Of a stretch of 64,000 nucleotides of DNA, positions 10,962 to 50,165 are shown in pieces (the first letter of the stretch is position 1; every line of letters starts with the position of its first letter). The DNA comes from Limnanthes douglasii subsp. nivea (lineage: Eukaryota > Streptophyta > Magnoliopsida > Brassicales > Limnanthaceae), in contig JAUPFV010000005.1 in assembly GCA_036936605.1 (NCBI GenBank), positions 228,251,770 to 228,315,769 on the forward strand, written 5' to 3'. The notes under the pieces were generated by a model. The model searched no databases. It was not told where the DNA came from and saw only the letters and a list, made by a program, of their open reading frames with translations. The translations under genes and the position numbers were made by a program.

Positions 10962-10988
10962 AATATATATCATCAGCTCTACACAAAC

Positions 10989-12371
10989 ATGTCAAATTCA
11001 GCAGATTTTCAGTCAGGTTCTCCCAGTATAGCTTTGTTTCCAAGTGCAGGAATGGGTCATCTAACCCCATTCCTCCGTCTTGCTTCAATGCTATCTGCTC
11101 GCGGCTGTCAAATCACATTGATAATTGCTAAACCGACTGTTTCCATGGCCGAATCCAAGTATACATCCTGGTTCCTTACCAACAACCCAAGAATCAAGAG
11201 CATTGAATTCCACCCAACACAAAATCTGTCTGTTAATTCTTCGGACGATCCTTTCTTTGTTCAAATGGAAGCAATTAGCCGCTCTATTCCTCTTCTTTAC
11301 CCTTTACTATCTTCTTTGTCTCATCCTATCTCTGCCATCTTTTGTGATCTTGTAGTAGCCTCTGGTATTGATCAAATTGCTTGTGATCTTAGCATTCCTT
11401 ATTATGTTGTTTCCACCACTTCTGCCAATTTTCAATCTCTCCTAATGAAAGTTCCAATCACAACGACCACTGGTATGACTCATTTGGAAATGCCAGGCAT
11501 GACTCCAATTCCTCTGTCAAGCATTCCTCCACCCTTATTGTTTAGCCCGGATAGTCTGTTTACGACAACTGTCTTAAAGAATGCTCAAGCTGTAACAGGA
11601 GCAAAGGGAATACTCATCAACAGTTTTGACTGGTTCGAGTCGGAAACACTCAGTGCACTCGACAAAGACAGAATGTCATACGACTTACCACCACTACTTC
11701 CGATTGGGCCGTTAGAAACTTTCGAGCTGGAGAAAGACCAGAGTAAGTGTGTATCATGGTTAGACAAACAACCGGCAGAATCTGTTGTTTATGTCAGCTT
11801 TGGGAGTAGAACAGCCATGTCTGATGATCAAATAAGAGAACTTGGAGATGGGGTTGATAAAAGTGGGAGCCGGTTTTTGTGGGTACTCAAGACTGAGAAA
11901 ATTGATAGGCAAGACAAAGAGGACCTGAAAGACTTGCTAGGCGATGCATATCTGAAAAGGACCAAGGAGAAAGGCATAGTAGTGAAGAGCTGGGTCAACC
12001 AACAAGAGATTCTAGCTCATCCTGCACTCAGAGGGTTTATAAGTCACTGTGGGTGGAATTCAGTGATGGAAGCAGCACAGCATGGGGTTCCCGTGCTGGC
12101 ATGGCCACTGAATGGGGACCAGAGAGTGAATGCGGAAATCATGGAGAAGAAAGGGCTAGGGATATGGGAGAGAAGCTGGGGTTGGGCTGGTGAGAGATTG
12201 GTGAAGGGAGAGGAAATCAAGGAGAAAATTTTAGAGCTTATGGAAGATGCAAAGCTACACGCAGCAAAGAATGTAAGAGCAGAAGCAAAGAAGGGGCATG
12301 AAAACGGAGGTAGCTCTCAAAAGGTGATCATGGACCTCATCCAATCATTATCTCAGAAGAAGTTAAATTGA
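10989..12371 (+). CDS. UDP-glycosyltransferase, UGT708-like (family 1), single exon
   Basis: This 460-residue enzyme should transfer a sugar, usually glucose from UDP-glucose, to a small aromatic acceptor in the cytosol. Best resemblance is to UGT708, which holds C-glucosyltransferases of 2-hydroxyflavanones and related polyketides; some members also make O-glucosides. The family signature SAGMGHLTPFLRLASMLS is at residues 19-36 with catalytic His24, and the partner Asp is D120 (AIFCDL). The DDPF motif at residues 86-89 is typical of plant C-GTs. The PSPG box spans about 335-378 (WVNQQEILAHP..HCGWNSVMEA..NGDQ) and ends in Asp-Gln, as in glucose-using enzymes. There are no stops or introns, and the start matches the family N-terminus. 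A near-duplicate start precedes it. The next gene, TrmH, converges on it. The exact substrate cannot be read from sequence. Confidence 0.93.
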   Translation: MSNSADFQSGSPSIALFPSAGMGHLTPFLRLASMLSARGCQITLIIAKPTVSMAESKYTSWFLTNNPRIKSIEFHPTQNLSVNSSDDPFFVQMEAISRSIPLLYPLLSSLSHPISAIFCDLVVASGIDQIACDLSIPYYVVSTTSANFQSLLMKVPITTTTGMTHLEMPGMTPIPLSSIPPPLLFSPDSLFTTTVLKNAQAVTGAKGILINSFDWFESETLSALDKDRMSYDLPPLLPIGPLETFELEKDQSKCVSWLDKQPAESVVYVSFGSRTAMSDDQIRELGDGVDKSGSRFLWVLKTEKIDRQDKEDLKDLLGDAYLKRTKEKGIVVKSWVNQQEILAHPALRGFISHCGWNSVMEAAQHGVPVLAWPLNGDQRVNAEIMEKKGLGIWERSWGWAGERLVKGEEIKEKILELMEDAKLHAAKNVRAEAKKGHENGGSSQKVIMDLIQSLSQKKLN

Positions 12372-18608: not shown

Positions 18609-18617
18609 TTTATTATA

Positions 18618-18715
18618 GGGAAATTGCACCTAAAGTATCCTCTCAACTATTCAATTTTCACTTGCTACCCAAAGTTTAATCAATTGTTACTTAATACCCA
18701 ACTCAACTATCTTAT
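18618..18715 (+). repeat. Left terminal inverted repeat of the 11.5-kb MULE
   Basis: Imperfect partner of the right end. Shared words in order are ACCTAAAGTA/ACCTGAAAATA, CTCAACTAT, CTACC and GTTACTTAATACC. Confidence 0.8.
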
Positions 18716-19703
18716 TGTCACTTAAAACCTAATATTATTTTAATACCCTAACTACCCTTAACCCACTATATAAACATAATTTTCTGTTTTCTTTCTATTT
18801 TTTCTAGCTTTTTGAAGATTTGAATTTGTTAGCCGCTCTAACCACCTAACCCTACGAACCACCACGAAGACCGGTTGAAATCACATTTTCCGGTGATCGG
18901 AAGCTGTTGAAGGTTTGTTTATTTATGTAGGTTGTGGTGTTAGTCTTGTCTAACCAGTGTTTTCTACGTACAGGAGTTGATCGTGGTTTTTTGGAATATG
19001 TTGGCTTACAAGTAATCGTGTTGCTTGCTTTTCAGGTAATTACCTACCGATTTCGAAGTTATTCATTGGTTTTCTCTGTTGGAATAGGTTATATTCTACT
19101 GTTTTTAGACGTCATTGCCTGATTTCGAGCTTTTCTCTGTTTTTTTGTTATAGTGATCTGTTATTGTTTGTTTAATATTGTTCGTTATATACTTATGTCC
19201 TTGTTTTCTGATGTTATATACTAATTTTGTAGTGCTTTAGTTTTTTATTTCATGTGTAGATTACGAGTTTTAGTTGTCCAGGCCTTACACTAAAGATGCG
19301 AATTGTTTGATGTATTCGATGAGAAAGATGCTAATTGTATGATCAATTCGCATGGTGACATGCGAATCACATGAACGAAGTTTACATACGTTTCGCATGT
19401 TAGGATGCGAACTATGTGAAACTATAGAGTAGTGTGTGTTCAAACATATACCAGGACTTTAGATAATTTTTTACACAGTTCGCATGTTATGATACGAACT
19501 ATTTATAACTTTTTAGAGTATTGTACATCGAACCAATTATCAGGACTTTTTTTACACAGAAATATCAGGACAATATGCGAATTGCTCGATGTATGTATAC
19601 ACAATTCGCACGTTAGGATGCGAATTGTTTGATACGGTAGTAAATAATTTGCACATAGTTTTTGTGACTAATAACTAATAACTTGTTCTGTCCAGGGTAA
19701 GAG

Positions 19704-22253
19704 ATGTCCAAATCACGAGTTTGTATTTTTAAATATGGTCACCAAAGTGCAATTGTGCCTTTCACGGAGTTTGAAAGCTTTCAAAGTATCCAAGCTTATG
19801 TAGAGAACACATGGGAGGATCTTGCCACAAGTGACTACCTAATTACCTACTCCTGTGGGGATCACAATAATTGTTTCTTTAATAACCAGAATGATTTTTT
19901 GGGTTGGTGTTATATCTTGATTTGGAGTGTTTAAAACGGGTTAGTATTCTCATAGAACATCACGTCTTCGATAAGGGTTCTGGTAATAAAAGTTCTGTTG
20001 ATAAGAGCTCTGGTGGTAAGGATTGTGGTGTAAAGCGTAAAGAGCGTAGCTTGATTTTGGGAGAACCATCTCCCAATCAACTAGTTAGCGGTGAGAGTAG
20101 TAACGGTTTAGTTAATTATGATCAGAGAAAAAAAACAACTTGTTACTGCTGGTTGGGCTGATGCTATTATAGGAGTGGGTCAAGCTTTTGAAGAAGTTGC
20201 TGCCGGTCTGAGGTTATCTTTGTGCAAGTTTGCGTTAGAGCATGGTTTTTCTTTTAAATACCTGCACAACACAGCAAATAAGATCACTGCTTATTGTGAA
20301 AATAAGTTCACAAGTGGGTGGAAATTGAGGCTTTATGCATCTATTGACTCAAGCACCAGCTTGATGACGATCAAGAAGTATATCCCGCACCATACTTGCA
20401 GTCCTGTTTTCTCCCAGAAGCATAAGCATAAGCGGCACATGAATTTGACATCAGATTTGATTGCAGAGGAAATTCAGGATTCTCTACAGACCTGTCATTC
20501 GTCGATAGCCAAAACCATACAATTGACTGTCAAACAAGATTATGGTCTTGACATCTCTTATCGTTTGTCATGGAATGCTTTAGAGAAGGCTATGAGGGGA
20601 GTTTTTGGAGATAGTTCAAGTTCTTTTAGTTTACTCAACGGATACTTCAAACACTTGAAGAGTTGGGATATTACTTCAGACTGCCAGTTGGAGGTTTCAG
20701 CTGGAAACCGATTCAAGCGCTGTTTTATAGCATTCGGTTCGTCCCTTCGGGGTTTTCATTCATGCCGTCCAATGTTGTTTGTCGATGGAACCCACTTATA
20801 TGGCAAGTACAAGGGTACCTTGCTCACTGCTGTAGCAAAGGACGGAAACAACGGTTAGTTACATTTATCTAGTTAATCTGAATGATGTTTTTGTGTGAAA
20901 ATGCTGATGCAATTCGCATCAGAGGCTGTGAATTAAGCAGTGTAATGATCTTAACCTTTCGCATCATGTGCTACGAACTAGGTATTATCTGAAACTGTAC
21001 TTACATCTCAGCTTGAATTAGGTATTATTTGAAGTTGTCACAAACAATTCGCATGCCAAGCTGCGAATTCCATGTATGAGCAATTGAAATGTCCCACATA
21101 ATTCGCATGACAAGCTGCGAATTGTTTGTTCCAGGACATCATGCGAATTGTTTACAATTTTTAACACTTTGGGTACTGTTGTAGTGTTCATTTGATCTGC
21201 CTTTTTCCAGGACTATTCCATGTTGCTGTTGGTGTAGTTAACATTGAAGATTGTGACAATTGGATGTGGTTTTGGGGTGTTTGAAACCACATTTACTGGA
21301 TCACCAGATCACATTTATTTCAGACCGTCATTCTGGTATCGTTAATACTGTTTCTGTCTTGTATCCAAACTGCTATCATGCGTACTGTTATTTCCATCTA
21401 ATGCAGAATTTGAAAGCCAAACTAGAACATACTAACATACACTATAAAAAAAAGGATGTTGAGTTTCTTCCATCGTCTTGCTTATGCTCCCAGTAGAGAG
21501 CTTTTTAAAGATATACTAACGATTTTTCTATGTGAAGGTGGTGACAGAATGAGTGATTTTCTTGCAAATTTACCCCCTGAAAAGTATGCGCAGGCTTACG
21601 TAAAAGGGAAGCGATACGGCTCTATGGCTTCTACTGCAGCTGAATCGTTTAACAATCAGATTAAAAAATATTGCGGCCTACCTATTGTTGAGTTTATTGA
21701 TTGGATTAGAGTCTTGCTTATGACTCAAGTTTCACGGAGATATGAAGAGGGTCTCAGCTGGAGTACTAATTTGGTTCCCGAGTACGAGAAGAAGCTAAAG
21801 CAGAATGTTGACATGTGTCGAACTTGGGTAGTACGTAAGTCCTCTACCGCCATGTTCGAAGTCTTTTCGAATCTTGTGGCTGTTGTTAATCTGTTGGATT
21901 TCAAGTGTTCATGCGGATCATGGCAACAAGAGTGTTTTCCATGTCCTCATGCTTTAGCGGCATTACAATACACTGACCAAGATCCATTGACTATAATAGA
22001 ACCCTTCTTTACGGTTAAGAATTACAGGGAAAGTTACTCTTTTAGCATACCAGCTATAACTGATTTCGGCGAAGGGTCCAGCGCTAACGATCCTTCTTTT
22101 GTTGAAGTTCTGCCTCCGAACGTTAAGAGACGCTCAGGAAGGTCTAAGAAAAAACGAATCCCTTCTAGAGGAGAAATCTCAACCAAGCAGTTGAGGTGTG
22201 GCCGATGTTCGAAATCATGCCATAACCGGAGGACTTGTGATGTTCCAGTTTAA
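19704..22253 (+). pseudogene. MULE transposase (mudrA type), interrupted by frameshifts
   Basis: Begins MSKSRVCIFKYGHQSAI at the ATG 19704. Exon 1 runs to 20853 and exon 2 from 21211 to the TAA at 22251-22253. The MULE transposase core is clear: PMLFVDGTHLYGKYKGTLL near 20779 holds the first catalytic Asp, and ITFISDRHSGIVNTV near 21310 the second. A SWIM zinc finger (CSCGSWQQECFPCPH) near 21910 and a zinc knuckle-like end (CGRCSKSCHNRRTC) follow. The frame changes at about 19896 (T run), 20130 (A run), 21275 (G run) and 21445 (A run), alternately losing and gaining one base. Every lesion is in a homopolymer, so decay or sequencing error are both possible. A full protein cannot be made from the sequence as given. 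Confidence 0.88.
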
Positions 22254-23002
22254 GGACAATCCGTGTTGTGGAGAATTCTGGTTGGCCAGATCACATTTAT
22301 TTGTAGTACTGTTATTGTTCTGTACATCAAACTAAACATTTTTACATTCCTGTGTTTTGTAATGCTATTATTAGAGTTATGAAATGTTAAGTGCTTTGGG
22401 TTGTAAGCATTTCGCATCCTGTGTTGCGAATTGTGTACAATATGTTGGTATATTGTTGCAAACATCTATCAGGATTACATACGATTTTGTGTGAAATTTC
22501 ACCAGGATGCGAATCGTTAGTAAAATCATACCAAACATTTATCAACATTTGAGGCTACGAACTATGTTGAGCTATAACGTAATGCCATTTCATATAGATA
22601 TCAGGACTCCTGGCTGCGAATTATGACCAGAACATATGATAATAATTATGCGCATACGTTTTGCATGATATGCTGCGAATTATGACCAGATTTATGATGC
22701 GATTGGAGAACAATTAGAAGTCCTGATATTTGTCACATGATAAGCTGCGAAGTGTGCTTTAATAAAAATACCAGGATATTCGGTAAGGTTGAAAATAAGA
22801 AATATATCAGGTTAACATGCGAATGATTTGCAAATTGTAACTGGATGCGAATCGTTTATATGATTGAAAGTCTGTAAACAAATTGGATTACAAAAAAGAG
22901 GATTACAATATTTTCATGCACTAACAAATGTTTACATAGATCACTACAAGCTACTACTATTAGTTAGTTGCATTCCAAAAAATCAAAAAACAAAAACCAA
23001 CT

Positions 23003-23374
23003 CTAGGAGTTAGTAGAGGATTCATCACCATCTTTTTTCTCTTTCTTCTCTTTGTGCTGATCATCTTTCTCTTTCTCCTCTTTCTCTTCCACTTCCTCTT
23101 CATCTTCAATATCTACGTCCATCATGCTTAAAACTTTTGTCCTTGATGGACCAGCTTCGTCTTCCCTCTTGCTTTTGTTGTTTCGAACCACTGCCGTTTA
23201 ACGTTGCACCTTTTTTGGCTGAGGTGCAGCAGCAAGCATTGGAACCTCTTCTGGCTGAGGTTCAGCAGCAACCAGTGGAACAACTTCCACTGGTTGAGAG
23301 TCAACAGAGTAGTAGTCATCATACATGTCCAACCCAAAAACAGATACTGGGCTGTTTGGTGGTGCTGCTGGCAT
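23003..23374 (-). pseudogene. Small acidic protein gene, third gene of the MULE, one stop
   Basis: From ATG 23374 a minus frame of 123 codons plus stop reads MPAAPPNSPVSVFGLDMYDD, then a Val/Pro/Glu repeat-like part (QPVEVVPLVAAEPQPEEVPM), and ends in a strongly acidic and Lys-rich tail (MDVDIEDEEEVEEKEEKEK) with TNS at the C-terminus. One TAA at 23198-23200 interrupts it; the frame continues unchanged on both sides. The frame is also open upstream to 23485 without an ATG. TATAAATA lies at 23543-23550 on the same strand. No family is recognised. It converges on the transposase gene. Confidence 0.5.
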
Positions 23375-23542
23375 GATCAACTCATCACTCCAGTTAACGG
23401 TTAAGGATGACCAGGAGTCACCCAGAGAACCGAGTGAACCAGAGTTTGAGTATGAGGTGGTGGTTGTGGTGGTGGAAGAGAACAAGAGGTGTTTTAAAAA
23501 AATATAGAGTATGTTGTAAAATTAGCCTCAGGTTACTAGAGG

Positions 23543-23550
23543 TATTTATA
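23543..23550 (-). promoter_or_regulatory. Putative TATA box for the small minus-strand gene
   Basis: TATAAATA on the minus strand, about 58 bp before the open frame begins. This suggests a separate promoter inside the MULE rather than read-through from the ULP1-like gene. Confidence 0.5.
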
Positions 23551-24058
23551 GGGAAAGGAGGTAATCATTACATAGCCTCTATGTCCAAGCAGCATTTAAT
23601 GGGTTATGTACTTGATTAGATTGTTTTTTGTATGCTCAATGGAGAAAACGTTTACCAAGGCATAAGCCATAGCCTGTTCGTATCCTTGAACTTTATATTT
23701 TGAATTTTTTATTTCTACACCATGCTGCGAATTTTTTTTAAGGTGGTATACCAGGCTGCGAACTGTTTGTGTAGTGATAAGTACGCATCTATCAGGTTAG
23801 TATGCGAACTATTTGCTGATAATTTAGGCTGCGAATTATTTACTGATAAATAAGCATCTATCAGGTTAGGCTGCGAACTGTTCATACATACCATGGATTT
23901 GCTGCGAATTATTTGGTTGGAATTATTCGAATATTAATCAACCCTTATAGATCAGGAATATTCACATTTCTGGAAATGTAATTTGTTTATGTATGCACAA
24001 CAAACTAAAAAATACAACCGATGTATTTACAAGCAAAAACATAGTGTTTTAAATCGAA

Positions 24059-27000
24059 TCAGCCATATGCGATGCGGTCTTTGTCATTTAAAAAGTAATA
24101 AAACATTTCTGCTCTGAAGGCAGTTACCATATCTGCATCGTATTTTTTCTGCACGAATCCATGCTCGATAATATCTCTTGCATATTTACAGACAAAGATA
24201 CCACAGTCCAGGGTGCCTCGCTTTTGTTGTGGGATACCTCTTTCAACTTTCACCTTCCACCCTGTCTTATATTTAGGTAGGAATCCTCTATCCAACAAAT
24301 ATTTGATCTGTGTATAATAATTAGTGTTAGGAATAAGCACAAAAACAACAACAGCTGGTGCCACACAATTCGCACCTTAGGCTTCGAATTGTATGACAAC
24401 AAATCCAACATGGGCATGTCACACGATTCGCAGCTTAAGTTGCAAATTATTTGATATGCAATCCATTTTTTGTTGAAATGCCCCGTTCAACACAATTCGC
24501 ATCATATGCTGCGAATTGAGTTATGGATAGGCTGCGAAAAGCAATTGATTTACTCACATTTCGCAACATATCCCGATCACAGTTCGCAGCATGCATACTT
24601 AAAATGTGTTTAAATTTAAGTGTATAGTTTGGAATATTTACCAGTTGTGCAGGTGTCCTTGTGGTGTAGTCTATGGCTTTCAGCTTAGGCAGAAGCGGAT
24701 TGTAGTTTGAAATTGTCCTGCCGTCGACGTCAATGACGAGCAACGTTCAGTGGTTTATCTAGTCCTTTGTCTCGGTGCATACTGGAACGATGATGATGTT
24801 GGCATCTTTGCGCCACATTCTAAAAGCCATGTCCACCAAATTTTCTACTTGCCAGCCTACTTTCATTTGATGCTGCATCCAAGCAAGAGTATATTAAAAT
24901 GAGAACATTTTCTGAAAACTTTGTTCAATTTACCTGAGCTAAACTTACCGCAGTCATGGCCGAAATCAGTACGGCGTCATGATGCTCTCCTTTAGCTTTA
25001 GTGCATGGAACTTTGAAGTCTGCTTCTTCAAGCATCTTTCGAATCCAAGCATCGATAACCTAAGAAAGGAGTTTTAGATTTATGCTAAATATACAAGACA
25101 TATTTGAAACATTGAAAATAGAATTGGTTGACAATTGGATACCTTTACGTCCAGCTCCAGTTCTAAAGGTAGTGCCATGGCATCACTCGCTTGCACTCTG
25201 ATTCCGTATGTAAACTTGGACTCTGGTAATTGCCATACCACTAGATCAGGGGTGTCGCTCTCGTAGGCTTTAACTAACTGTATTTTGTGGTATTCTGCCA
25301 CATCGATACAGTCAGTTACTTTTGTTTTCTTTGGCCAGTCGTTGTATTCTACTTTTGGCGGTTCCCGTATTGTTATAATGAACTCTTCCTCTTTCTCTGC
25401 CACTTGAGGCTGTGTTTGTGTCAGTAGAGTAAAACTTGGCTCCTTTATCTCCTTACTGGGCTTGAGCTTAGTAAATAACAAAAATCAAAAGTAGAAGGGT
25501 GTCAGTAATTATAATTGCAACGACTCCAAACAGTTCACATGCTAACATGCGAACTGTTTGGTTCCAGATGAATAAATTTTATAGTATCTATCAGGGTAGG
25601 ATGGGAACTGTTCGAGGTTCCACTGAACAGTTCGTATGATACCCTGATATTCGTTTGTAATACCCCAATCAGTTTGCTAACACAAATCTCATGTTATGAT
25701 GCGAAATCATTATAAGTAGCCCTTACCGCACGGTCAGCGACAACCAATGTCGTTGACTTGTTCGACATAGGATCTGGATCGTGTCGGCAGAAATCATTAA
25801 TGTCATCCTCCGACATGTTCTCCAAGGACCGTTGTATTATAGAATCGTAACATACATTATCAATTTCATTTAAAAATGTCTGTAAAACTTGAGTGTAAAT
25901 ACCATCAACAAAAGCATCGGGTAAACCTACTATGTTATCATGGGACTCTAGAGCTTGCAGTTGATTTGTTACCGGGCCTACGGTTTCACGTTGTCTTAGC
26001 AATTCTGACTTTGTTGACAGCACCGTTGGTCTTTGTGGTTCCACTGAAGAAGTGGTGTTGTCTTCTAAGGATGGTCCTTCCTGGCTGAGTAGTTTCATCT
26101 TCTCACCGGGATGGACATGTTATGACTCTTGAGGTGCTATCTCTTGCGTTAGCCTTTCTCTCTTTGCCAAGGTTATCTGTTGCTGTTGTTGTTGTTCTTG
26201 TTCTTGTTGTCCTTGTTGCTCTCGTTGTTGTTCTTGTTGTTGTTCTTGTTGCCGGTCTTCGTGTTGAACTTGTGGCTGCTGGTGTTGTTGCTGGTGGTGT
26301 TCTTGTTGTTGTTGCTCTTGGTGTTGTTGTTGCTGGTGGTGTTCTTGTTGTTGTTGCTGTTGGTGTTGGTGTTGCTGGTGGTGTTCTTCTTGTTGTTGCT
26401 GTTGGTGTTGTTGTTGCTGGTGGTGTTCTTCTTGTTCTTGCTGTTGGTGTTGTTGTTGTTGTTGTTCTTCTTGTTCTTGCTGTTGGTGTTGTTGTTGTTG
26501 TTCTTCTTGTTCTTACTGTTGGTGTTGTTGTTGTTGTTGTTCTTGTTTCTGTTGTTCTTGTTGTTGTCTTTCGGTCTCCTGTTTCATACAAAATTCCAAA
26601 AAAACAAAAGGGTGGAAGGGTTAAGCATACTATAATCATTGTTGCGAACGATTCGCATGCTGACCTGATATTTGTTTTGTCCACCTCAAACAATTCGCAG
26701 CTCAGCATGCGAATTATGTAATAACCAATCCATTTTTTGAATACACAATTCGCAACATAAGATGCGAAACGTTTGGTCAGGACTACACAAGAGTCCTGAT
26801 ATTTGTTTGATATCATCATATCATCCACTTACATCGTGTATCTCCTTTGGGTCATTCAGAGGAGACTCGTGTCTTTCTTTCTCTCTCTATGTCTCCATGA
26901 TGTCCATCTCTGCAGATTGTACCGGTATGGGTGAATGGTTGGCATTATCGTCCCTTTCTTCTGGCAGTACTCCATCAGCATGGTGCTGATCAACATTAGA

Positions 27001-29156
27001 CACGGATGCTTGCTGATCAGTGGATTCTTCTCTGTCTGGAAATACTGGTACCTGCTCAGCTATTGGGCTTTCAATCCGGCAAATTGGCTGAGAGATAGCA
27101 TTGTAGAGTTGTTGTGCTTCAAGTTCCGCTATCTTGCGTTTCAATTCTTTCAGCTGGAAAAATGATAGCAAACATTTTATAAACATATTAAGTGCTGATT
27201 GTAGCGATTATTTAAGGCTCAAGTCATACTTACTTCTCTGACCAGTTTTTCTATCTTTCTCTCGTACTTGTTCTTGTCGGCGTATATCTTCAAACGCTTT
27301 GATTTAGCAACGATTGCAGAAATCTCAGGATTAGGACCTCTGCGTTTGAGTACATAATCACCGATTGTTTCACTCATACTGGTTGTGTCGTCGTCGTCGG
27401 GCTCCTGCCTGGATTTGCCTTTCGGTTGTGGTGGAATTGTTTGCTTGGGGAGTCTTGGTGGTGGAATCGTTGGCTCGGGTGGTGTTGGTTGTTCGGGTCT
27501 GGGAGACATCACCTTATTCATTACTTTCTGTGATGCTCGTCTCCTTTGTCTTGGTTTTGATGCTGTACTTTTCGTCCTCTTCCTTGGTCTTTCTTCCGGT
27601 GAAGTAGAAAAGGTTTCTGCATCTTCACTATCTTCTCGTTCTCCGAAAGCTTCACTTTCAGCCTCAGTAAGACGTAATGGACCTTCGAAAACCTACCAAC
27701 AGAGGCACATGTAATTAAATAAATTGTTTTTGAAAGTATGAGGGTGTAAACAAACAAATTGTTTTTAGAAACAGTTCGCATTATATGATGCGAAATGTGT
27801 GATTCTAATCATGTTAGAGTTGCAAAGAATTCGCATGCTGAGCTGCGAATTGTGTATGGGACATATGCTGCGAACTATGTGTAAACCATATGCTGCGAAC
27901 TAAGTATTTATGTCAGGCTGTAAAAATGATTGATGCATTGTTCTATTATAACACTTTGTTAAAACTCATGCAGAGCTGCGAAACGTGTGTAAAACTATAT
28001 GATGCGAACTGTGTGGAAAAAGAAGTTGCGAAGTAAAATTCATATCAGGCTGCGAAATGATTGATACATTTTTCTAAGCAAAACGCATGATATGCTGCGA
28101 GCTGTTTGCACCCCTAGTTCAATACCTATATAAAGCTTATACCTGGTCATTATCCAGCGAGGGTGTTCTAAGAAGCACTGTCATGGTTTCTGCTTGGCAC
28201 TCTAATCCCAACCATTTAAAAAACCTTGGTATCGAGGTTGGCTTCGCTACCTCGTGGCTGATTGTTGTGTGCTCCGTGATGAAGAGCTGCATGGGGACAA
28301 GTTTTATCAACAAGATGCTGTGTACATAACTAATTTTTATACTGAATAGATCAATCTTACAATTACAAGGGCGACGCAGACGACGACTTTATCAGCTCTT
28401 TCTATTGCTAAGCAACTCCTGATTGACTGTCGAAGCTTGTACAGTATTGATCCAGCCCAGTCATAATTGTTTATTCTGCTGAGGTCTTCAACGTAATAAA
28501 CCGTGCTCCAACCCAGGATATCTCCAGATACTGGGTGGAGCACAAAAACAGTATCAACAGCCTCGCAACGTCTTCCAACTCATGCTCCCCTCCTTCGTTT
28601 ATGGCCTTCTCTATACCCTCTTGTAAAACCAATGACAACATGCTATGTTAGAAATGTACAGAATCTTGATTTATAAAGATGAAGTCCATTTTAGACGTAC
28701 CTTTATAATGGCATTTGTTATTGTTTTGGTATTACTAGCTGCTACTTTCCTGCCAGTTTTACCCATGAAGTATTTCTTCATCATCCTTGATTCGTCCTCC
28801 TCGCCGGGTGCATATTTGTTCTGAAAAGCTCCGGTTTTTGTTAACCGCATTTTCTCGGTGCCATGCCTCAACCCGAATATGATCTTCACATCGTTTTCAG
28901 TTATCTTTACATACTTGTTGCCAATCCTAAAGGCGTCTCTATCCACAGAGAATTTCTCGATGATATACTGAATGATTGAGTAGAATTTTTTCTTTGCCAG
29001 CTCTGCCTCATTGCGGATTTGGAAAGCCGTTTTCAGAAGTGTGTAGAATGGTGTGTTTCTTGCAGCTTCAATGTGAGCCCTTGTAATACGCATATCTTTA
29101 AGTAGCTTCAGAAGGCTTACCAACCCTGACCCGTAGTAGCTAGGTTTTGTTGGCAT
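24059..29156 (-). pseudogene. ULP1-like (C48) cysteine protease gene of the MULE, ten exons, inactivated
   Basis: The family removes SUMO-type modifiers; copies inside MULEs are of unknown role. Likely exons: 29156-28701 (MPTKPSYYGSGLVSLLK..), 28617-28361, 28286-28143 (FITEHTTISHEVAKPTSIP), 27692-27234, 27153-26833, 26575-25727 (Gln-rich), 25466-25143, 25059-24949, 24872-24642 and 24307-24059. The C-terminal protease part shows TLLVIDVDGRTISNYNPLL after the expected His, and QQKRGTLDCGIFVCKYARD with the catalytic Gln and Cys. It is broken: stops flank the His (near 24752-24765), the Gln-rich exon has a stop near 26514, another stop lies near 26125, and frames shift near 28552 and 26890. The first exons match the N-terminal region common to plant transposon-borne ULP genes. 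Confidence 0.8.
26176..26574. repeat. Gln-coding minisatellite in the ULP1-like gene
   Basis: On the plus strand this is GTT/GGT/CTT-rich, with a roughly 30-bp unit around GTTGTTGTTGCTGGTGGTG. On the minus strand the exon frame reads Gln with some His and Glu. A Thr-rich frame and two plus-strand Leu/Val-rich frames also stay open, only because the repeat lacks stops. Confidence 0.85.
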
Positions 29157-29984
29157 ACTTTCTGCACAAACACAAATCAGTTGGAATGTCACAAATAATT
29201 CGCATCACAAGTTGCTTAACATGTCACACACAATACGCATGACAAGCTGCGAATTGATTATATATGAATATTTCTTTAACATACAATTCGCAACCTGGGC
29301 TGCGAATTGTCTGTAGATAAACGACATAAAAATATAATCGAGCTGCGAATTGCTTACATAATGGGTGATCAGGATGCGAACTGTTCCACTTTTTACATGC
29401 ACGTTGCAGGGATCTAGGAATTATTGAACAAACACCAAAATCAACAATCAACTACCTAATGCACATCTAACATACATAATATTTCTCAGGATAGTATTAG
29501 CATTACATGCAACTAAACTTCTACCCTGCCTTCGACGATAAACCCAGAAACTTAGCAACTATCGTCAGTATATACTTCATTCCAGTATAAAAAGCAACGC
29601 CTATCGTGAAGTAACATAAAAAAGTGGTTCAAATTCGTCAAAAACGCAAAAAAAGTACACTTTCCACGATAATGCATACTTGTTAAATTTCACCGGTCGG
29701 AGAACGAGATTGAAGCTTTCGGAGACGACTTCACGACAACTTTGTCGAACAGAAGGTGTGTAGTTGGAGTGAGTAAAAGACGCTGACCGGTGCGATAGCG
29801 TCGAACGTGCGAACGGTGAGAAGCTGTAGGGTTTTTGGGTTTGAGAGAGAGAGAGTATCACGAAGTCGAACGGTTTTCTGGTGGTTTCTAAAATTAGACT
29901 TTTGGGTTTGTTTAGGGTGATAGGAAGGTGGAAAAAGTGGGTTCGAACTGAAAAATGGGTATATATAGTCGAGGGGTATTTTTG

Positions 29985-30081
29985 TCCAATTTATTAGTCG
30001 AGGTATTAAGTAACACTATGTAAAATTTAGGTAGTGTCGAGTAATAAGATAGTTGAGTGGGTATTTTCAGGTACTTTTCTC
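29985..30081 (-). repeat. Right terminal inverted repeat of the 11.5-kb MULE
   Basis: Inverse of the left end with scattered mismatches and small indels. The last base before the target duplication is 30081. Confidence 0.8.
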
Positions 30082-30090
30082 TTTATTATA

Positions 30091-36974: not shown

Positions 36975-37491
36975 TGGTGGCGACTGGTTTTGAAACACAG
37001 TCGTCGGCTGTAGAAATCAAGAGGAAGAAGACAAAAAGAACTGTTGGATAATTCTAACCCTAGGTTAGATTAAGGGAGACTTTAAAGAAAATTAAAATTG
37101 TATTCAAAAAAGTCTGAGGCAAAACTAGGGTTTGAGAGCCTTTTATAGAAGTGCTCGAAACCCTAGCCCAAAATTACATCTTTTTTTCTTATGCAATAAA
37201 ATAAAGCCCAGTCCAATTTCAAAGCGATTGGAGCTGGTTAAGTATTTTAATAAAATCTAAATAAAATAGGAAAATGCAGAAAATTTACTAAAACAGCAAA
37301 ACGAGGGTTTAAACGATTAAATTTAGGGCCTGGACTTCATCACTTTGTGATGCTTTCGAAAATTGTTGGGCTTCTCGACGCGTTCGATTTGAGTGGTCGC
37401 ATCGCCTAATTCTGATATCTGGGCCCCAAATAAAGCCTGTTTCCGTTTGTCCAAAAGGGCCATATAGTCATGGGCTTGTGCAACTACATCA
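36975..37491 (-). repeat. 3' LTR of the CRM-like element
   Basis: Looks identical to the 5' LTR. It carries the last 56 codons and the stop of the polyprotein (37323-37491). Confidence 0.95.
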
Positions 37492-40400
37492 TCCTCCCCT
37501 TCTTCGGAAGAATTCGCCCACGAATTCTCAGCTTCATCATCCTCAGCAGCAGCGGTAAATGGCACCAGGTGCTTCACGTTGAAAACGTTATGGGTCTTCA
37601 TGTGGCTTGGAAGTTTCAACCTGTATGCATTGGGATTAATCTTTTCAATGATTTCAAACGGACCCACCTTCCTTGCAGCCAACTTGTTGTACTCGTGTGC
37701 AGGATAGCGATCCCTGGTCAAAACAGCCCATACAAAGTCTCCCACTGCAAACTCCACCAGGCGGCGCTTCTTATCTGCGGCAATCTTGTACTTCTGTGTT
37801 GTTTCCTCCAAGTGTTTGCGGGTGTTCGCATGGATCTCCCATAGATCAGCAATGGCGTTCTCAACCTTAGCTGGGACCTTATCAAGCGTTGGGAAAGCTA
37901 AGTCCATAGGACCCCGTGGGTTATAACCATAGACTACCATGAAGGGACTATACCCAGTACTACGCTTGTGGTGCCTGTTGTAGGCGAACTCAACATGATA
38001 AAGACGAGAATCCCATGCTTTCAAGTTCCCAGAGACCTCTGTGCGTAACATGTTGCCTAACGTTCGATTAGTTACCTCGGTTTGGCCATCTGTCTGCGGG
38101 TGATATGCGCTGCTAAAACTCAGCTTCGTGTTTGTGAGGCGCCACAAACTCCTCCAAAAATGCCCCACAAACCGCGCATCGCGATCAGAAACGATATTCA
38201 AGGGTAGACCATGTAAGCGGTAGACCTCACGAAAGTATAAATTAGCAACATTCACAGCATCTGTGGTTTTCTTGCAGGCAATGAAGTGGGCCATCTTAGA
38301 AAACCTGTCAACCACTACAAAAATAGAATCGTTACCTCTCTGTGTTCTTGGCAGCCCAGAGATGAAATCCATGCTGACGCTTCGCCATGGTCCTTCCGGG
38401 ATTGGGAGTGGTAGGTATAGACCTGCGTTGGAGGATGTACCTTTTGCCACTTGGCAAACCCGACAACCAGCTACAAAACGGATAACATCTCGCCTCAAAT
38501 GCGGCCAGAAGAACTGACTGGATACAGAGTGAAGGGTTTGATCTCTACCCCCATGCCCCTCGTTATGTCTCTCCTGTACAATCAGTAATCTCAAACTGCC
38601 CTCAGGAACACAAAGTAAATTACCTTTAAAGAGGTAACCGTTGCTCACTGCAAAATCTTTTCTCAAACCTGCGCTGACGTCCTCTATAATAGGACCAAAA
38701 TATGGATCGATAGCTAGTAGATCCTTCATCATCTCGAATCCCACAACTTCTCCTTCCATACGAATCATCATACTGCGTCGGCTCAATGCGTCAGCTACAC
38801 GGTTAACTGTCCCTGAAGTATGCTTAATGGAAAAGGTAAATTGTTGCGTAAATGCTGCCCAACGTGCATGGCGGGAAGAGAGTTTCTCCTGACTCTGCAG
38901 ATGTTTTAAGGCATCATGATCGGTGTACAGGACAAAGTCATTGTAGGCCAAGTAGGAACTCCAGTGCTTCAAAGCTCGTACAACTGCATAGAACTCCTTG
39001 TCATAGGTGCTGTAGTTAAGTTTAGCTCCACTTAACTTTTCGCTGAAGTATGCTACAGGACGACCTCGTTGGCTGAGTACGGCGCCAATGCCCAATCCGG
39101 ACGCATCACAATGCAGTTCAAATCCTGTAGAAAAGTCAGGTAAAACCAGAATCGGTGCAGTGGTCAGTCTTACCTTGATTATCTCAAACGCTTTAGCTGC
39201 TTCAGGGGTCCAACAGAATGTCTTGCCCTTCATACACTCTGTAATGGGAGCCATAACAGTGCTGAAGTTATGTATGAACCGTCTGTAAAAAGAGACCAAT
39301 CCGTGAAAAGAGCGGACTTCAGTGATGGAAGTAGGAATAGGCCAGTCTCGCACGGCTTCTACTTTCGACTGATCCACTGAAAGCCCATCTTTTGACACAA
39401 CATACCCTAGGAAGACGACCGAATCTGTCATAAAACAACACTTATCGAGTCCTCCATAAAACTTCTCTCGCCTCAACACAACCAACACCTCGCGTAAGTG
39501 CTGGAGATGCAGCTCTTCCGTGGTACTATAAATAAGAATATCATCAAAGTACACAACAAGAAATTTTCCGATGAATGGGCGAAATACCTGGTTCATAACC
39601 CGCATGAACGTGCTAGGAGCGTTAGAAAGACCGAATGGCATTACCATCCATTCAAACAGACCTTCTCGGGTCTTGAAGGCTGTTTTCCACTCATCCCCCA
39701 TACGAATACGAATCTGGTGGTATCCGCTCTTCAAATCCAGCTTCGTAAACACAGTAGCACCATTCAATTGATCCAGTAAATCATCAAGGCGAGGAATAGG
39801 AAACCGATACCTGACTGTAATTTTGTTGATAGCCCGGCTATCCACACACATTCTCATTGAGCCATCTTTCTTTGGTGTTAATAGTGCAGGAACCGCACAA
39901 GGACTAAGACTCTCCCGGATGTGGCCTTTCGTTAACAGTTCCTCCACCTGTCTGCGAAGCTCTTCATGCTCTTTTGGGCTCATCCGATAATGCGGTCGGT
40001 TTGGTAGACTAGCACCCGGTACAAGGTCAATCTGGTGTTGGATATCTCTCAATGGAGGAAGACCTGTAGGTAAAGTATCGGGAAAGACAACAGAGAATTC
40101 TGCTAAAAGCGGCCGAACTCGCTCAGGTATACCAGCAAATGGATCAGTACTAAATTCTTTAACCATCAAAAGATAGACAATCCCTGTTTCATGAGCATGT
40201 TCTATAAACGCCTTTTGAGCTAGAAAGTTCTTACCCGACTCCTTTGATACTGCAAGGGCAGGTTTTGGAGAAACCTCTCTAGTTGGTGTTAATATGAACC
40301 TGACATTATTCCATATAAAACTGTAGCGGTTCCTCCTACCATCATATGTGACACTTCTGTCATATTGCCAGGGTCGGCCTAACAACAAGTGACACGCATC

Positions 40401-41945
40401 CATCCCAATGACATCGCACCAAGCTTTATCCCTATAGTTACCAACAAAGAAAGATACCAGACATCTTCTAGAGATACTTACCTCACTACCTTTCTTTAAC
40501 CAAGCAAGCTTGTAGGGGTTTGGGTGGTCTTCTGTTTTCAGGGCCAGTTTCTGGACAACTTCTTCAGAGATAACATTTTCGCAGCTCCCTGAATCAATAA
40601 CGAATTTGCATACCTTTCCCCCAATAGTACAAGTCGATTGGAAAATATTGTTCCGTAGCCAATCATCCCCATCACTTTTGGCTTTCGGCGTCAAGCAGAT
40701 ACGCCTTAGAACCAATGCCTGACCAATATCTCCTCCTGTAACCTGGTCCTCTGGAACCTCATCAACAACATCTTCTGGTTCTTCATCAAACCGCGGCTCG
40801 CCCTCCAGGGAAAAATCAGCAGTGTCAGCGAACAGACCCCTCGGGTGTTGTGGTTGTTGTCGTAATTTGGGACACTGTAAAGCAACGTGCCCTAGTTCAT
40901 GACAATGGTAGCACCGGACCTGTGAGGAAGTAACTGTGCGACTAGGGTCCTGTAAATTAGCACCTGTGCGCATAGGAGAAGCAGTTGGCACTCCTGGGTT
41001 AGGGCTTGGAACCGTCCTTTTGGGGAATGTCAATGGATTTTGTCTGGCAGTGTCTCCTCCATAAGGCCTTCGTGAAAGGGCTTTCTCCAGATGCAGTGCG
41101 CGCTGATGTGCTTCAGACACATTCACAGGGTCGAACATATTCAGCTGGTCCTGAAACTGTTGTCGCATCCCCCCTATATAGCGAGAGACTAGCTGATCTG
41201 CTGAATCAGTAATATATACACGGTTTTGTAGCGTGAAAAAATCGTTAGTGTACTCGTCAACAGTCTTTGACCCTTGTTTAAGGTTTTGGAACTGCTGATA
41301 CATTATGCGGTTATAGTTGTAAGGCAAAAACGCAGCCCTCATGTGCTTCACAAACTTAGCCCAAGTTGTTATTTTTGTCTTACCGTGCCTTGATCTGGTC
41401 TGCTTGAGCTGTTGCCACCAGGATGCAGCTCGGCCTCGGAACTTAGTTGCAGCCAACTGTACCCGCTTTGCATCCGGAACCTCCTTGAAATCAAGAACTT
41501 CTTCAACTGAGGCGATCCAATCTAAAAACTCCTCTGGTGCAAGACCCCCTTGGAACTCTGGGATCTCCAATCTGAATCCAGATTCCCACCGGTTGTTGGC
41601 GTTCAGATCAGAATCTCTCGGTGGCGGCTGCTCAAAGACTTGGTCACGGCAGTCTTGTGGTGAGTATTGACCCCTAACTTGTTCTCGCCGAGGAGCAAAC
41701 GGATTTTGCTCGCGACCGATCTCTCTCTCAGATCCCGACGGCTGGTTGCTCGAACCTGGTGCTCGAAAGCCGTTGGTTTGGTTGTTCAACAGCCTGTGTA
41801 GTGCTTCTTGTACGTCTCTCAACTGATTTCCCAACGAGTGCATCTGTTCACCAACCTGGGATTGGAATTGACCGAATTCATCACGGTCGATCGATTCAGT
41901 GATCGGAATAGTGGACTTCCCTCGAAAAGATCGCTTTGGCGGCAT
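37323..41945 (-). CDS. CRM-like gag-pol polyprotein, 1540 residues, intact
   Basis: The first ATG is at 41945 (MPPKRSFRGKSTIPITES); the frame is open further into the 5' LTR but without an ATG. Domains in order: gag (EFQGGLAPEEFLDWIASVEE to QRALHLEKAL, about 130-300); zinc knuckle CYHCHELGHVALQC near 345-360; aspartic protease site VIDSGSCENVIS near 447; RT with VVYFDDILIYS near 798; RNase H with HCDASGLGIGAV near 945 and TDHDALKHL near 1010; integrase with an HHCC zinc site near 1125-1165 and the D-D-E residues in SVSMDFISG, NIVSDRDARF and DGQTEVTNR (about 1190-1290); then GPFEIIEKINPNAYRLKLP. No canonical chromodomain is visible after it. The tail crosses the polypurine tract into the 3' LTR, a CRM trait. 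No stop or frameshift, so it could be active. Confidence 0.95.
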   Translation of the reverse strand: MPPKRSFRGKSTIPITESIDRDEFGQFQSQVGEQMHSLGNQLRDVQEALHRLLNNQTNGFRAPGSSNQPSGSEREIGREQNPFAPRREQVRGQYSPQDCRDQVFEQPPPRDSDLNANNRWESGFRLEIPEFQGGLAPEEFLDWIASVEEVLDFKEVPDAKRVQLAATKFRGRAASWWQQLKQTRSRHGKTKITTWAKFVKHMRAAFLPYNYNRIMYQQFQNLKQGSKTVDEYTNDFFTLQNRVYITDSADQLVSRYIGGMRQQFQDQLNMFDPVNVSEAHQRALHLEKALSRRPYGGDTARQNPLTFPKRTVPSPNPGVPTASPMRTGANLQDPSRTVTSSQVRCYHCHELGHVALQCPKLRQQPQHPRGLFADTADFSLEGEPRFDEEPEDVVDEVPEDQVTGGDIGQALVLRRICLTPKAKSDGDDWLRNNIFQSTCTIGGKVCKFVIDSGSCENVISEEVVQKLALKTEDHPNPYKLAWLKKGSEVSISRRCLVSFFVGNYRDKAWCDVIGMDACHLLLGRPWQYDRSVTYDGRRNRYSFIWNNVRFILTPTREVSPKPALAVSKESGKNFLAQKAFIEHAHETGIVYLLMVKEFSTDPFAGIPERVRPLLAEFSVVFPDTLPTGLPPLRDIQHQIDLVPGASLPNRPHYRMSPKEHEELRRQVEELLTKGHIRESLSPCAVPALLTPKKDGSMRMCVDSRAINKITVRYRFPIPRLDDLLDQLNGATVFTKLDLKSGYHQIRIRMGDEWKTAFKTREGLFEWMVMPFGLSNAPSTFMRVMNQVFRPFIGKFLVVYFDDILIYSTTEELHLQHLREVLVVLRREKFYGGLDKCCFMTDSVVFLGYVVSKDGLSVDQSKVEAVRDWPIPTSITEVRSFHGLVSFYRRFIHNFSTVMAPITECMKGKTFCWTPEAAKAFEIIKVRLTTAPILVLPDFSTGFELHCDASGLGIGAVLSQRGRPVAYFSEKLSGAKLNYSTYDKEFYAVVRALKHWSSYLAYNDFVLYTDHDALKHLQSQEKLSSRHARWAAFTQQFTFSIKHTSGTVNRVADALSRRSMMIRMEGEVVGFEMMKDLLAIDPYFGPIIEDVSAGLRKDFAVSNGYLFKGNLLCVPEGSLRLLIVQERHNEGHGGRDQTLHSVSSQFFWPHLRRDVIRFVAGCRVCQVAKGTSSNAGLYLPLPIPEGPWRSVSMDFISGLPRTQRGNDSIFVVVDRFSKMAHFIACKKTTDAVNVANLYFREVYRLHGLPLNIVSDRDARFVGHFWRSLWRLTNTKLSFSSAYHPQTDGQTEVTNRTLGNMLRTEVSGNLKAWDSRLYHVEFAYNRHHKRSTGYSPFMVVYGYNPRGPMDLAFPTLDKVPAKVENAIADLWEIHANTRKHLEETTQKYKIAADKKRRLVEFAVGDFVWAVLTRDRYPAHEYNKLAARKVGPFEIIEKINPNAYRLKLPSHMKTHNVFNVKHLVPFTAAAEDDEAENSWANSSEEGEDDVVAQAHDYMALLDKRKQALFGAQISELGDATTQIERVEKPNNFRKHHKVMKSRP
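37492..37504 (-). other. Polypurine tract
   Basis: AAGAAGGGGAGGA immediately before the 3' LTR. It also encodes part of the polyprotein tail (EEGED). Confidence 0.88.
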
Positions 41946-41974
41946 ACCGTCGTTACCCACGCCGTAGGAACTCT

Positions 41975-41987
41975 GGCTCTGATACCA
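41975..41987 (-). other. Primer-binding site, initiator tRNA-Met type
   Basis: TGGTATCAGAGCC on the minus strand, three bases after the 5' LTR, complementary to the 3' end of initiator tRNA-Met. Confidence 0.9.
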
Positions 41988-41990
41988 ATA

Positions 41991-42507
41991 TGGTGGCGAC
42001 TGGTTTTGAAACACAGTCGTCGGCTGTAGAAATCAAGAGGAAGAAGACAAAAAGAACTGTTGGATAATTCTAACCCTAGGTTAGATTAAGGGAGACTTTA
42101 AAGAAAATTAAAATTGTATTCAAAAAAGTCTGAGGCAAAACTAGGGTTTGAGAGCCTTTTATAGAAGTGCTCGAAACCCTAGCCCAAAATTACATCTTTT
42201 TTTCTTATGCAATAAAATAAAGCCCAGTCCAATTTCAAAGCGATTGGAGCTGGTTAAGTATTTTAATAAAATCTAAATAAAATAGGAAAATGCAGAAAAT
42301 TTACTAAAACAGCAAAACGAGGGTTTAAACGATTAAATTTAGGGCCTGGACTTCATCACTTTGTGATGCTTTCGAAAATTGTTGGGCTTCTCGACGCGTT
42401 CGATTTGAGTGGTCGCATCGCCTAATTCTGATATCTGGGCCCCAAATAAAGCCTGTTTCCGTTTGTCCAAAAGGGCCATATAGTCATGGGCTTGTGCAAC
42501 TACATCA
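41991..42507 (-). repeat. 5' LTR of the CRM-like element
   Basis: TG..CA ends. CTATAAAAGG on the minus strand (42155-42164) is a likely TATA box for the genomic transcript. Confidence 0.95.
42155..42164 (-). promoter_or_regulatory. Putative TATA box in the CRM 5' LTR
   Basis: CTATAAAAGG, about 210 bp upstream of the polyprotein ATG. Confidence 0.6.
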
Positions 42508-45518: not shown

Positions 45519-45572
45519 GAAACAGCAAAATGATCCCATGGAGCATCTTGTACAGCAAGTAATACACAAAAA

Positions 45573-46919
45573 ATGTCAATTCTAGTACCTCATATAGCTC
45601 TGATTCCAAGTGCAGGAATGGGTCACCTCACTCCATTCCTCCGATTAGCTTCAATGCTATCGGCTCGTGGCTGTCATATAACTCTAATAACTCCAAAACC
45701 AACTGTCTCAGCAGTGGAATCTGTCTACATCTCATGGTTCCTCAGAGAACACGTGAAAATCAAGAGCATTGAGTTTCATGTAACTCAAAATCAGTCGGCC
45801 AATTGTTCGGATGATCCATTTTTTGTCCAATTTAAAACCATTGCCTGCTCTGTGCCTCTTCTTCTTCCTTTATTATCTTCTTTGTCACCTCCTCTCTCTG
45901 CCATTTTTTGTGATCTCATAGCAGCTTCTGGTATGAATCTAATTGCTACTGACCTTGGCATTCCTTACTATGCTGTTTCCACCACTTCAGCCAAGTTTTT
46001 CTCTGTTATGATGAGTGTTCCGATCATATCAAGCAGTAGTATGACTCATTTGGAGATAGCAGGCATGGCTCCGATACCCCTATCAAGCGTGCCTCCACCG
46101 CTATTTGACCCAAATAGTCTTTTTACAAGTGTCATTAAAAAAGCCCAGGTTATAGCAGGCGCGAGCGGCATTCTTATGAACACTTTTGACTGGTTCGAGG
46201 CAGAAACACTCACTGCTGTCAACAAAGAGAGAGCTTTTCACGGCTTACCACCACTCCTTCCGATTGGGCCACTAGAAACTTACGAGCTGGAGAAAGACCA
46301 GAGCAAGTGTCTGTTGTGGTTAGACAAACAGCCGGCGGAATCTGTTGTTTACATCAGCTTTGGGAGCAGAACAGCCATGTCTCCTGATCAAATAAAAGAA
46401 TTGGGAGAAGGGATTGAGCAAAGTGGGAGCCGGTTCTTGTGGGTACTTAAGACTAAAAAAGTCGATAGGGAAGATACAGAGGATATGAAAGATTTACTAA
46501 GCAACAATTTTTTTGAGAGAACTAAGGATAAAGGTATAGTGGTTAAGGGCTGGGTGAACCAACAAGAGATTCTAGCTCATCCTGCAATCAGAGTGTTTAT
46601 AAATCACTGTGGGTGGAATTCGGTGATGGAAGCAGCATGGTACGGGGTTCCTGTGCTAGCGTGGCCCCTACATGGGGATCAGAGAGTGAATGCAGAAATT
46701 GTGGAGAAGATGGGATTGGGAATATGGGAAAGAAATTGGGGCTGGGGTGGTGAGAGATTGGTGAAGGGAGAGGAAATCAAGGGGAAAATTCTAGAGCTTA
46801 TCGAAGACGTGATGCTGAGTGCAGCAAGGAACGTAGGAGCAGAAGCAAGAAAGGCTCGTGAAGACAGAGGGAGCTCGGAGGCAATGTTAAAGGGACTCAT
46901 CCGAAAGTTGGAAAAGTGA
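45573..46919 (+). CDS. UDP-glycosyltransferase, UGT708-like, second copy
   Basis: This is a 448-residue single-exon paralogue of the gene at 10989, clearly similar along its whole length. It keeps SAGMGHLTPFLRLASMLS with catalytic His18, the DDPF motif at residues 80-83, Asp114 (AIFCDL), and a PSPG box at about 327-370 (WVNQQEILAHP..HCGWNSVMEA..HGDQ). Differences include RVFINHCGW in place of RGFISHCGW and a shorter N-terminus. The box ends in His-Gly-Asp-Gln, usual for UGT708. Expected activity is C- or O-glucosylation of a flavonoid-type acceptor using UDP-glucose; the substrate may differ from that of the first copy. A TATA box lies 55 bp upstream. A relic TrmH exon lies 318 bp downstream in convergent orientation, as at the first locus. 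Confidence 0.93.
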   Translation: MSILVPHIALIPSAGMGHLTPFLRLASMLSARGCHITLITPKPTVSAVESVYISWFLREHVKIKSIEFHVTQNQSANCSDDPFFVQFKTIACSVPLLLPLLSSLSPPLSAIFCDLIAASGMNLIATDLGIPYYAVSTTSAKFFSVMMSVPIISSSSMTHLEIAGMAPIPLSSVPPPLFDPNSLFTSVIKKAQVIAGASGILMNTFDWFEAETLTAVNKERAFHGLPPLLPIGPLETYELEKDQSKCLLWLDKQPAESVVYISFGSRTAMSPDQIKELGEGIEQSGSRFLWVLKTKKVDREDTEDMKDLLSNNFFERTKDKGIVVKGWVNQQEILAHPAIRVFINHCGWNSVMEAAWYGVPVLAWPLHGDQRVNAEIVEKMGLGIWERNWGWGGERLVKGEEIKGKILELIEDVMLSAARNVGAEARKAREDRGSSEAMLKGLIRKLEK

Positions 46920-50141: not shown

Positions 50142-50165
50142 CTCGATGCAAATTATGGGCAAGAC

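Follow-up and report, generated by a model that had tools for sequence, protein, structure and literature searches.

A decayed Mutator-like element (MULE) lies within a 64,000-nucleotide stretch of the Limnanthes douglasii subsp. nivea genome (contig JAUPFV010000005.1, positions 228,251,770 to 228,315,769; hereafter the window), and its non-coding DNA is densely populated by the hexamer TGCGAA, often arranged as inverted pairs of the form TTCGCA-N8-TGCGAA. The question raised by this locus is what, if anything, reads such an array. Here, we describe a computational analysis of the element, its siblings and a sister family in the same genome. We propose, with a probability of roughly 0.7, that the array comprises target sites of the family's own gene-2 protein, a product with a PMD/DUF1985-like N-terminus and an Ulp1 C-terminus that is predicted to dimerize and, as VANC proteins do for VANDAL elements, would relieve its own family of silencing.

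The precedent for such a system comes from Arabidopsis. According to the accessible text of Hosaka 2017 (PMC5735166), VANC21 strips VANDAL21 of methylation and binds the nine-base motif YAGTATTAY, which lies in that element's introns and spacers, and VANC6 targets motifs other than those of VANC21. The same text reports that VANDAL motif regions grow by tandem duplication and that the transposases are more alike than the VANCs. Excerpts of a review (PMC13317346) add that some VANC genes carry an Ulp1 domain (KIU) and recognise motifs of their own kind, the role of Ulp1 being called unknown there.

The element and its internal array

The element spans positions 18618 to 30081 (no strand assigned), as determined by direct reading of the sequence and alignment of the ends. 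Its left end at 18618 is GGGAAATTGC, its right end is at 30081, and, as is usual for a MULE, it is flanked by a 9-bp target-site duplication, TTTATTATA, at 18609-18617 and 30082-30090. Gapped alignment of the ends reveals degenerate terminal inverted repeats (TIRs) of about 90 bp, in keeping with the short or degenerate TIRs of the VANDAL group, which where present measure 46-174 bp (PMC6446971).

The original prediction, made from the sequence alone, held that about 60 copies of TGCGAA or its inverse occur in the element, against roughly five expected by chance, and that at least twelve form inverted pairs with eight bases between; counting bears out both estimates. There are 62 copies in 18618-30081, compared with a mean of 5.04 and a largest value of 14 in 500 dinucleotide shuffles, and 12 exact TTCGCA-N8-TGCGAA pairs, compared with a shuffle mean of 0.002, so that 24 of the 62 hexamers are paired. 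Of the gaps from 0 to 30 bases, gap 8 is the only one with exact pairs, and it has all 12. When one mismatch is allowed in the partner, 32 half-site matches are found at gap 8 and at most 1 at any other gap in this range. The remaining 52.5 kb of the window contains 11 hexamers and no N8 pair.

By the exon models, the array is confined to non-coding DNA, including introns of both genes and the spacers between them, as had been predicted. None of the 62 hexamers lies in a modelled exon, whereas about 34 would be expected there under even placement (the exon models cover 6,257 of 11,464 bp). This exclusion from exons corresponds to the non-coding motif repeats that define the VANDAL/VANC (KIU) systems. 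The hexamers form ten groups, located upstream of and within an intron of gene 1, in the spacers flanking a third open reading frame (ORF), in four gene-2 introns, upstream of gene 2, and, as a single isolated word, close to the right end. The terminal 679 bp at the left end are free of hexamers, and the 700 bp at the right end contain a single unpaired one.

From left to right, cluster 1 (19297-19624, upstream of the transposase gene) contains 9 hexamers with pairs at 19347-19366, 19392-19411 and 19605-19624, and cluster 2 (20913-21147, in the transposase intron) contains 7, with pairs at 21048-21067 and 21102-21121. Eight hexamers, including the pair 22411-22430, make up cluster 3 (22411-22851), between the transposase and the small ORF, and cluster 4 (23726-23908) consists of 6 single half-sites. 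The next four clusters lie in gene-2 introns: cluster 5 (24369-24588; 7 hexamers, pair 24496-24515), cluster 6 (25548-25705; 2 half-sites), cluster 7 (26643-26768; 6 hexamers, pairs 26694-26713 and 26749-26768) and cluster 8 (27775-28056; 10 hexamers, pairs 27775-27794 and 27830-27849). Finally, cluster 9 (29199-29380; 6 hexamers, pair 29287-29306) lies upstream of gene 2, and the lone hexamer at the right end occupies 29808-29813 on the plus strand.

The site is an extended dyad

The 248 distinct paired half-sites of the window element and ten siblings share the consensus TAnGMTGCGAAYTGTKT. The eight bases between the cores had been described as differing from pair to pair at a conserved spacing; they do vary and the gap is fixed, but they are also constrained: their consensus, KCNTANGM, has dyad symmetry, and four of the eight positions hold about 0.9 bit. 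The flanks, AAYTGTKT, are likewise constrained. The site is therefore a wider dyad built of two half-sites, with a spacer that is not free. Unpaired half-sites share much the same consensus, with a weaker right side.

The two halves of the spacer do not co-vary. Among 93 distinct pairs, complementary bases occur at frequencies of 0.28, 0.57, 0.31 and 0.47, compared with 0.33, 0.56, 0.30 and 0.56 expected from column composition, and no co-variation beyond column composition was detected in the flanks of these 93 sites. This lack of co-variation in the spacer speaks for protein contact with each half-site and against a hairpin. A phasing of the half-sites by 10-11 bp or 22 bp was also considered and is not claimed, since 675 distances, drawn together from copies that are related, gave vector strengths of 0.10-0.22.

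Siblings, subfamilies and genome-wide occurrence

Siblings were collected in the 1.78-Gb host genome, which is represented by five large contigs of 293-405 Mb, by searching with a gene-2 exon and without use of the motif. Of 8,591 candidates, 150 places were scored, among them that of the window itself; ten stretches of 11.3-11.6 kb were retrieved, and the counts below cover whole stretches with their flanks. The array is present in nine of the ten siblings at 45-66 hexamers and 8-14 N8 pairs; the tenth, L160, contains 32 hexamers and 6 pairs in a stretch that takes in no more of the element than its right part. Of the sibling pairs with gaps of 0 to 29, 109 of 124 have gap 8. The segment 19513-19680, single in the window, occurs up to about four times in L156 and L162 (overlapping matches), and its tandem duplication in several siblings parallels the duplicated motif regions of the VANDAL/VANC systems.

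Nine rows, comprising the window element and eight siblings, were aligned; L160 was left out, as was L170, whose left 2.65 kb is unmatched. None of the 68 consensus hexamers of this alignment falls in an exon (exon list without the third ORF). The lowest rates of change are those of the non-CpG positions of the core (1.0% for T, 2.1% and 3.4% for the two A, and 4.6% for G), as compared with 4.9-11.8% at spacer positions. Protection of CpG is not claimed: CpGs in hexamers change at 6.5%, those in other non-coding DNA at 9.0% and those in coding DNA at 6.8%, and the rows of the alignment are related.

Genome-wide, TTCGCA-N8-TGCGAA occurs 15,513 times, compared with 10 for the reversed control. 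When loci were sampled by motif only, seven of eight belonged to the window family. Two of these seven led to diverged subfamilies that retain the array: L183, with exons 69-83% identical at the protein level, has 39 hexamers and 5 pairs in 9.0 kb, and L184, with exons 58-75% identical, has 25 hexamers and 2 pairs in 9.0 kb. The eighth locus, L182 (G000:C1:3549200-3550400), contains one exact N8 pair in DNA dissimilar to the element family.

Genes of the element

The two genes and the third ORF all have broken frames in the window copy. Gene 1 (19704-22253, plus strand) encodes a MURA-like transposase, identified by profile matches; its SWIM zinc finger, characteristic of MuDR-type transposases, passes the cut-off (E 4.5e-6), and its N-terminus resembles DBD_Tnp_Mut below the cut-off (E 1.3e-4). 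The third ORF (23017-23521, minus strand), located between genes 1 and 2 and oriented as gene 2, encodes a small protein that is basic along one stretch and acidic at one end, and is open at 166 aa in two of eight siblings (L152 and L156).

Gene 2 (24059-29204, minus strand) combines a PMD/DUF1985-like N-terminal part (28701-29156 and the following exons) with an Ulp1 (C48) C-terminal part (24059-24345), the latter matching Peptidase_C48 over the cut-off (E 6.3e-6), as in the KIU-type VANC genes. The NHW...D and DCG stretches of the Ulp1 part, which we take to carry the catalytic residues, are both in frame in four of eight siblings. The E1 exon of gene 2 has a ratio of nonsynonymous to synonymous substitution of 0.225, calculated from 27 of 31 sequences after four exons were left out for stops. 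A short coiled coil is predicted across the 27225/27160 exon junction from our reading of the heptads, and a basic stretch is present besides.

The domain sought as the mark of a VANC gene was DUF1985 (or DUF287). PMD and/or a DUF is present in half of the VANDAL group (PMC6446971). A genome-wide search for DUF1985, in which 150 of 1,225 candidates were scored, returned three weak places, none of them the window's gene 2, and none of 3,156 candidates from a search of a large protein database with the gene-2 protein reached E 0.001. Within gene 2, the segment 26103-26828 is a long simple-repeat coding stretch, rich in Gln, Asn or Thr depending on the frame, with several frames open.

A sister family with a different site grammar

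A search for Ulp1 identified a sister family, represented by one copy (L185, extended by L187), that has the same gene layout as the window element, with an acidic ORF, matched by position, at the place of the third ORF. Compared with the window element, it shows 66% identity in the transposase and 33-53% in gene 2. Over 11.9 kb, this copy contains 6 TGCGAA words and lacks N8 pairs. Instead, TGATAG occurs 23 times in L185, compared with a shuffle mean of 5.5 and a largest value of 13, and TGMTAG forms direct repeats, 7 at 22 bp and 6 at 44 bp, compared with a maximum of 1 at any distance from 8 to 60 bp in 200 shuffles. The DNA between these repeats varies. The window family and the sister family thus differ in site grammar and, as in the VANDAL/VANC systems, related families possess different motifs. 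A 2022 abstract by Sasaki in EMBO J reportedly deals with the sequence of motifs, their density and their helical periodicity, with which the 22-bp spacing of the sister family would agree.

TGATAG-N16-TGATAG occurs 3,009 times genome-wide, compared with 339 for the control. Among the matches listed (the first 100 TGATAG-N16 pairs, on contig C1 up to 54.5 Mb), a pair lies within 6 kb of five of six Ulp1 Pfam matches, compared with 0.07 of 6 expected for random sites, and near none of three window-family exon matches and none of eight window-family motif clusters; the eight are the nine motif places on C1 minus the lone pair of L182. Because TGATAG-N16 pairs adjoin Ulp1 matches and not window-family matches, the two grammars are unmixed at the places examined.

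Other genomic repeats also use the TGATAG word. Direct repeats of TGATAG with gaps of 6 to 15 bases number 5,398 (control 3,698), and those with gaps of 17 to 26 number 18,386 (control 3,992), an excess over the reversed control of about 4.6-fold. Among the matches listed, several succeed one another at steps of 25-30 bp, a pattern suggestive of tandem repeats that belong to other elements.

Discussion

The array has its sites in non-coding DNA, in segments that duplicate in tandem, within an element that carries an Ulp1 gene and has a sister with a similar transposase and other sites. This combination matches the VANC layout, and it is on this basis that we read the array as targets of the gene-2 protein. 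The gene-2 product, as opposed to that of gene 1 or the third ORF, would bind the sites in introns and spacers, probably as a dimer given the dyad and the short predicted coiled coil. DNA methylation would be lost as a result, perhaps through local removal of SUMO. Since the genes of the window copy are broken, protein made by relatives whose frames are open would act on it in trans. The original prediction proposed that a dimeric protein, perhaps the element's transposase or its third gene product, binds the sites, or that hairpins act in silencing or anti-silencing. A dimer made by the element, perhaps for anti-silencing, fits the evidence and the VANC21 and VANC6 precedent in the accessible text of PMC5735166; the transposase is the weaker candidate, and hairpins are disfavoured.

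Several observations weigh against this reading. The N-terminus of gene 2 is weakly PMD-like (E 0.037, with one of two queries, below the cut-off) and gave no match to DUF1985 in a profile search with two queries. The structure model of the first gene-2 exon is poor (predicted local distance difference test score, pLDDT, of 60.3) and was not used as evidence; therefore no DNA-binding fold is established for gene 2. In the nine-row alignment, the CpG positions of the core decay at 6-7%, and the whole hexamer changes at 4.0%, the same rate as non-coding background outside motif zones, so that constraint is visible only as a contrast to neighbouring positions. Smaller secondary spacing peaks appear once two mismatches are allowed, with 35 matches at gap 8 and the next value 11 at gap 19. 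The evidence for the sister grammar consists of one copy together with pattern counts, one of the six Ulp1 matches among those listed has no TGATAG-N16 pair, and the excess at gaps of 17 to 26 rules out the 22-bp spacing as a unique genome-wide peak of TGATAG.

Among the alternatives, binding of the sites by the gene-1 transposase, for transposition or self-regulation at internal or subterminal positions, survives best, though we consider it unlikely. The sites bound by TnpA and MURA are terminal or subterminal, whereas those of the window element are spread over its interior and keep clear of the ends, the first lying 679 bp from the left end and no more than one unpaired hexamer lying within 700 bp of the right end. 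A literature search for the sites of Spm TnpA returned no match. The DBD_Tnp_Mut-like N-terminus of gene 1, below the cut-off as it is, favours a binding transposase, as does the precedent of MURA of MuDR and TnpA of Spm/En, which in the accessible part of PMC10398659 resemble the present case in that a transposon protein acts on its own element and drives hypomethylation, the sites of MURA being the TIRs. Against it, the sites here occupy introns across the entire element, and the sister-family transposase is 66% identical, yet accompanies a different grammar. Terminal transposase sites were accordingly rejected as the leading idea.

Recognition by a host transcription or silencing factor, the element having amassed sites for its expression or the host using them to recognise it, appears improbable. 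Introns and upstream regions are plausible places for enhancers, and a two-fold dyad suits many host factors. However, the N8 pair exceeds its control more than a thousandfold, and seven of eight loci sampled by motif belong to one family; furthermore, the other word and geometry of the sister family are better explained by a reader that the element encodes.

It is very improbable that tandem duplication and common descent produced the array neutrally, with no reader at all. The varying number of duplicated stretches among siblings and the failure of the whole hexamer to change more slowly than distant background speak for such an origin, but the core and spacing hold while spacers and flanks differ between pairs, the hexamers are absent from modelled exons, and the array persists in subfamilies with exon identities of 58-83%. 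Least probable of all, and set aside for want of co-variation, is the proposal that the pairs form hairpins or cruciforms in DNA or RNA, which the perfect six-base arms and eight-base loop would allow but which is countered by spacer halves and flanks that pair no more than composition predicts, by unpaired half-sites that retain the extended consensus, and by the direct repeats of the sister family.

The gene-2 protein as reader of the array is closely paralleled by VANDAL21/VANC21 and VANDAL6/VANC6. As described in the accessible text of Hosaka 2017 (PMC5735166), these are likewise MULEs with a transposase plus further ORFs, with a family-specific short motif that recurs in introns, in spacers and in the non-coding DNA of the ends, with tandemly duplicated motif regions, and with related families that use other motifs and have more similar transposases. 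They differ in that the VANDAL motifs, YAGTATTAY and AGTTGTCC/AGTTGTAC, are short tandem words, whereas the window element has a long dyadic site whose halves each contain a CpG and are separated by exactly eight bases; in addition, a protein of the window element carries Ulp1, and the host is not Arabidopsis and has a 1.78-Gb genome. The KIU/Kaonashi MULEs, as presented in excerpts of PMC13317346, also have an Ulp1 gene in a three-gene MULE, non-coding motifs that are recognised and silencing that is relieved, and are described there without a site geometry like this dyad. It is likely that gene 2 and its array function as a VANC-like system and belong to that group. The original prediction knew of no MULE with an internal grammar of this kind, and here it was mistaken, in that VANDALs carry motif arrays in non-coding regions. 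Although site arrays in MULEs are already known, the two-fold, CpG-bearing form with fixed spacing looks new, the words 'palindrom' and 'inverted' being absent from the accessible text of PMC5735166 and 'palindrom' from that of PMC10398659; the work of Sasaki from 2022 may describe a comparable geometry.

A more detailed scheme, possible but doubtful, is that the sister families are kept apart by geometry as well as word, with a dimer on the CpG-bearing inverted N8 site in one and direct half-sites two helical turns apart in the other. Both readers would bring a SUMO protease to the element, which would de-SUMOylate the silencing machinery and so open the chromatin of the family, with CpG methylation of the sites as the switch. 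If the reading of the array as gene-2 targets is true, sequence-addressed anti-silencing of the VANC type would extend to a plant with a large genome, and the dyad, being fixed, allows clear predictions about a dimeric reader, how much change in spacing it tolerates and how sensitive it is to CpG methylation. Sister families with a shared layout and different geometry in one genome would then offer a way to study target change without crossing over, and the same system a way to study the effect of Ulp1 tethered at sites, its role being the one called unknown in the excerpts of PMC13317346.

Related palindromes and other sequences of the window

Inverted TGCGAA pairs with other gaps are also found genome-wide: gaps of 0 to 7 together account for 901 occurrences (control 115) and gaps of 9 to 20 for 1,400 (control 246). 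At L186:489-626 (G000:C1:63862088-63862225), four TTCGCA-N6-TGCGAA palindromes are arranged as two pairs with 32-bp steps. L186 is another MULE, with a frame that we read as a FAR1-like transposase and a PF10551 match nearby; its palindromes apparently represent the TGCGAA core with another gap in another family. Inverted pairs with gaps of 12-13 and steps of about 32 and 87 bp occur at G000:C1:31620592-31620765 and similar places, and perhaps belong to a relative of the N6 family.

Elsewhere in the window, a 1,569-aa open frame at 37326-42032 (minus strand) encodes a Ty3-type retrotransposon with gag, protease, reverse transcriptase, RNase H and integrase. Two UDP-glycosyltransferase frames are located at 10962-12371 and 45534-46919, and one frame for a pentatricopeptide repeat (PPR) protein at 47772-50168. 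Between 52001 and 56000 the GC skew swings sharply, from +0.43 to -0.34, and long frames overlap.

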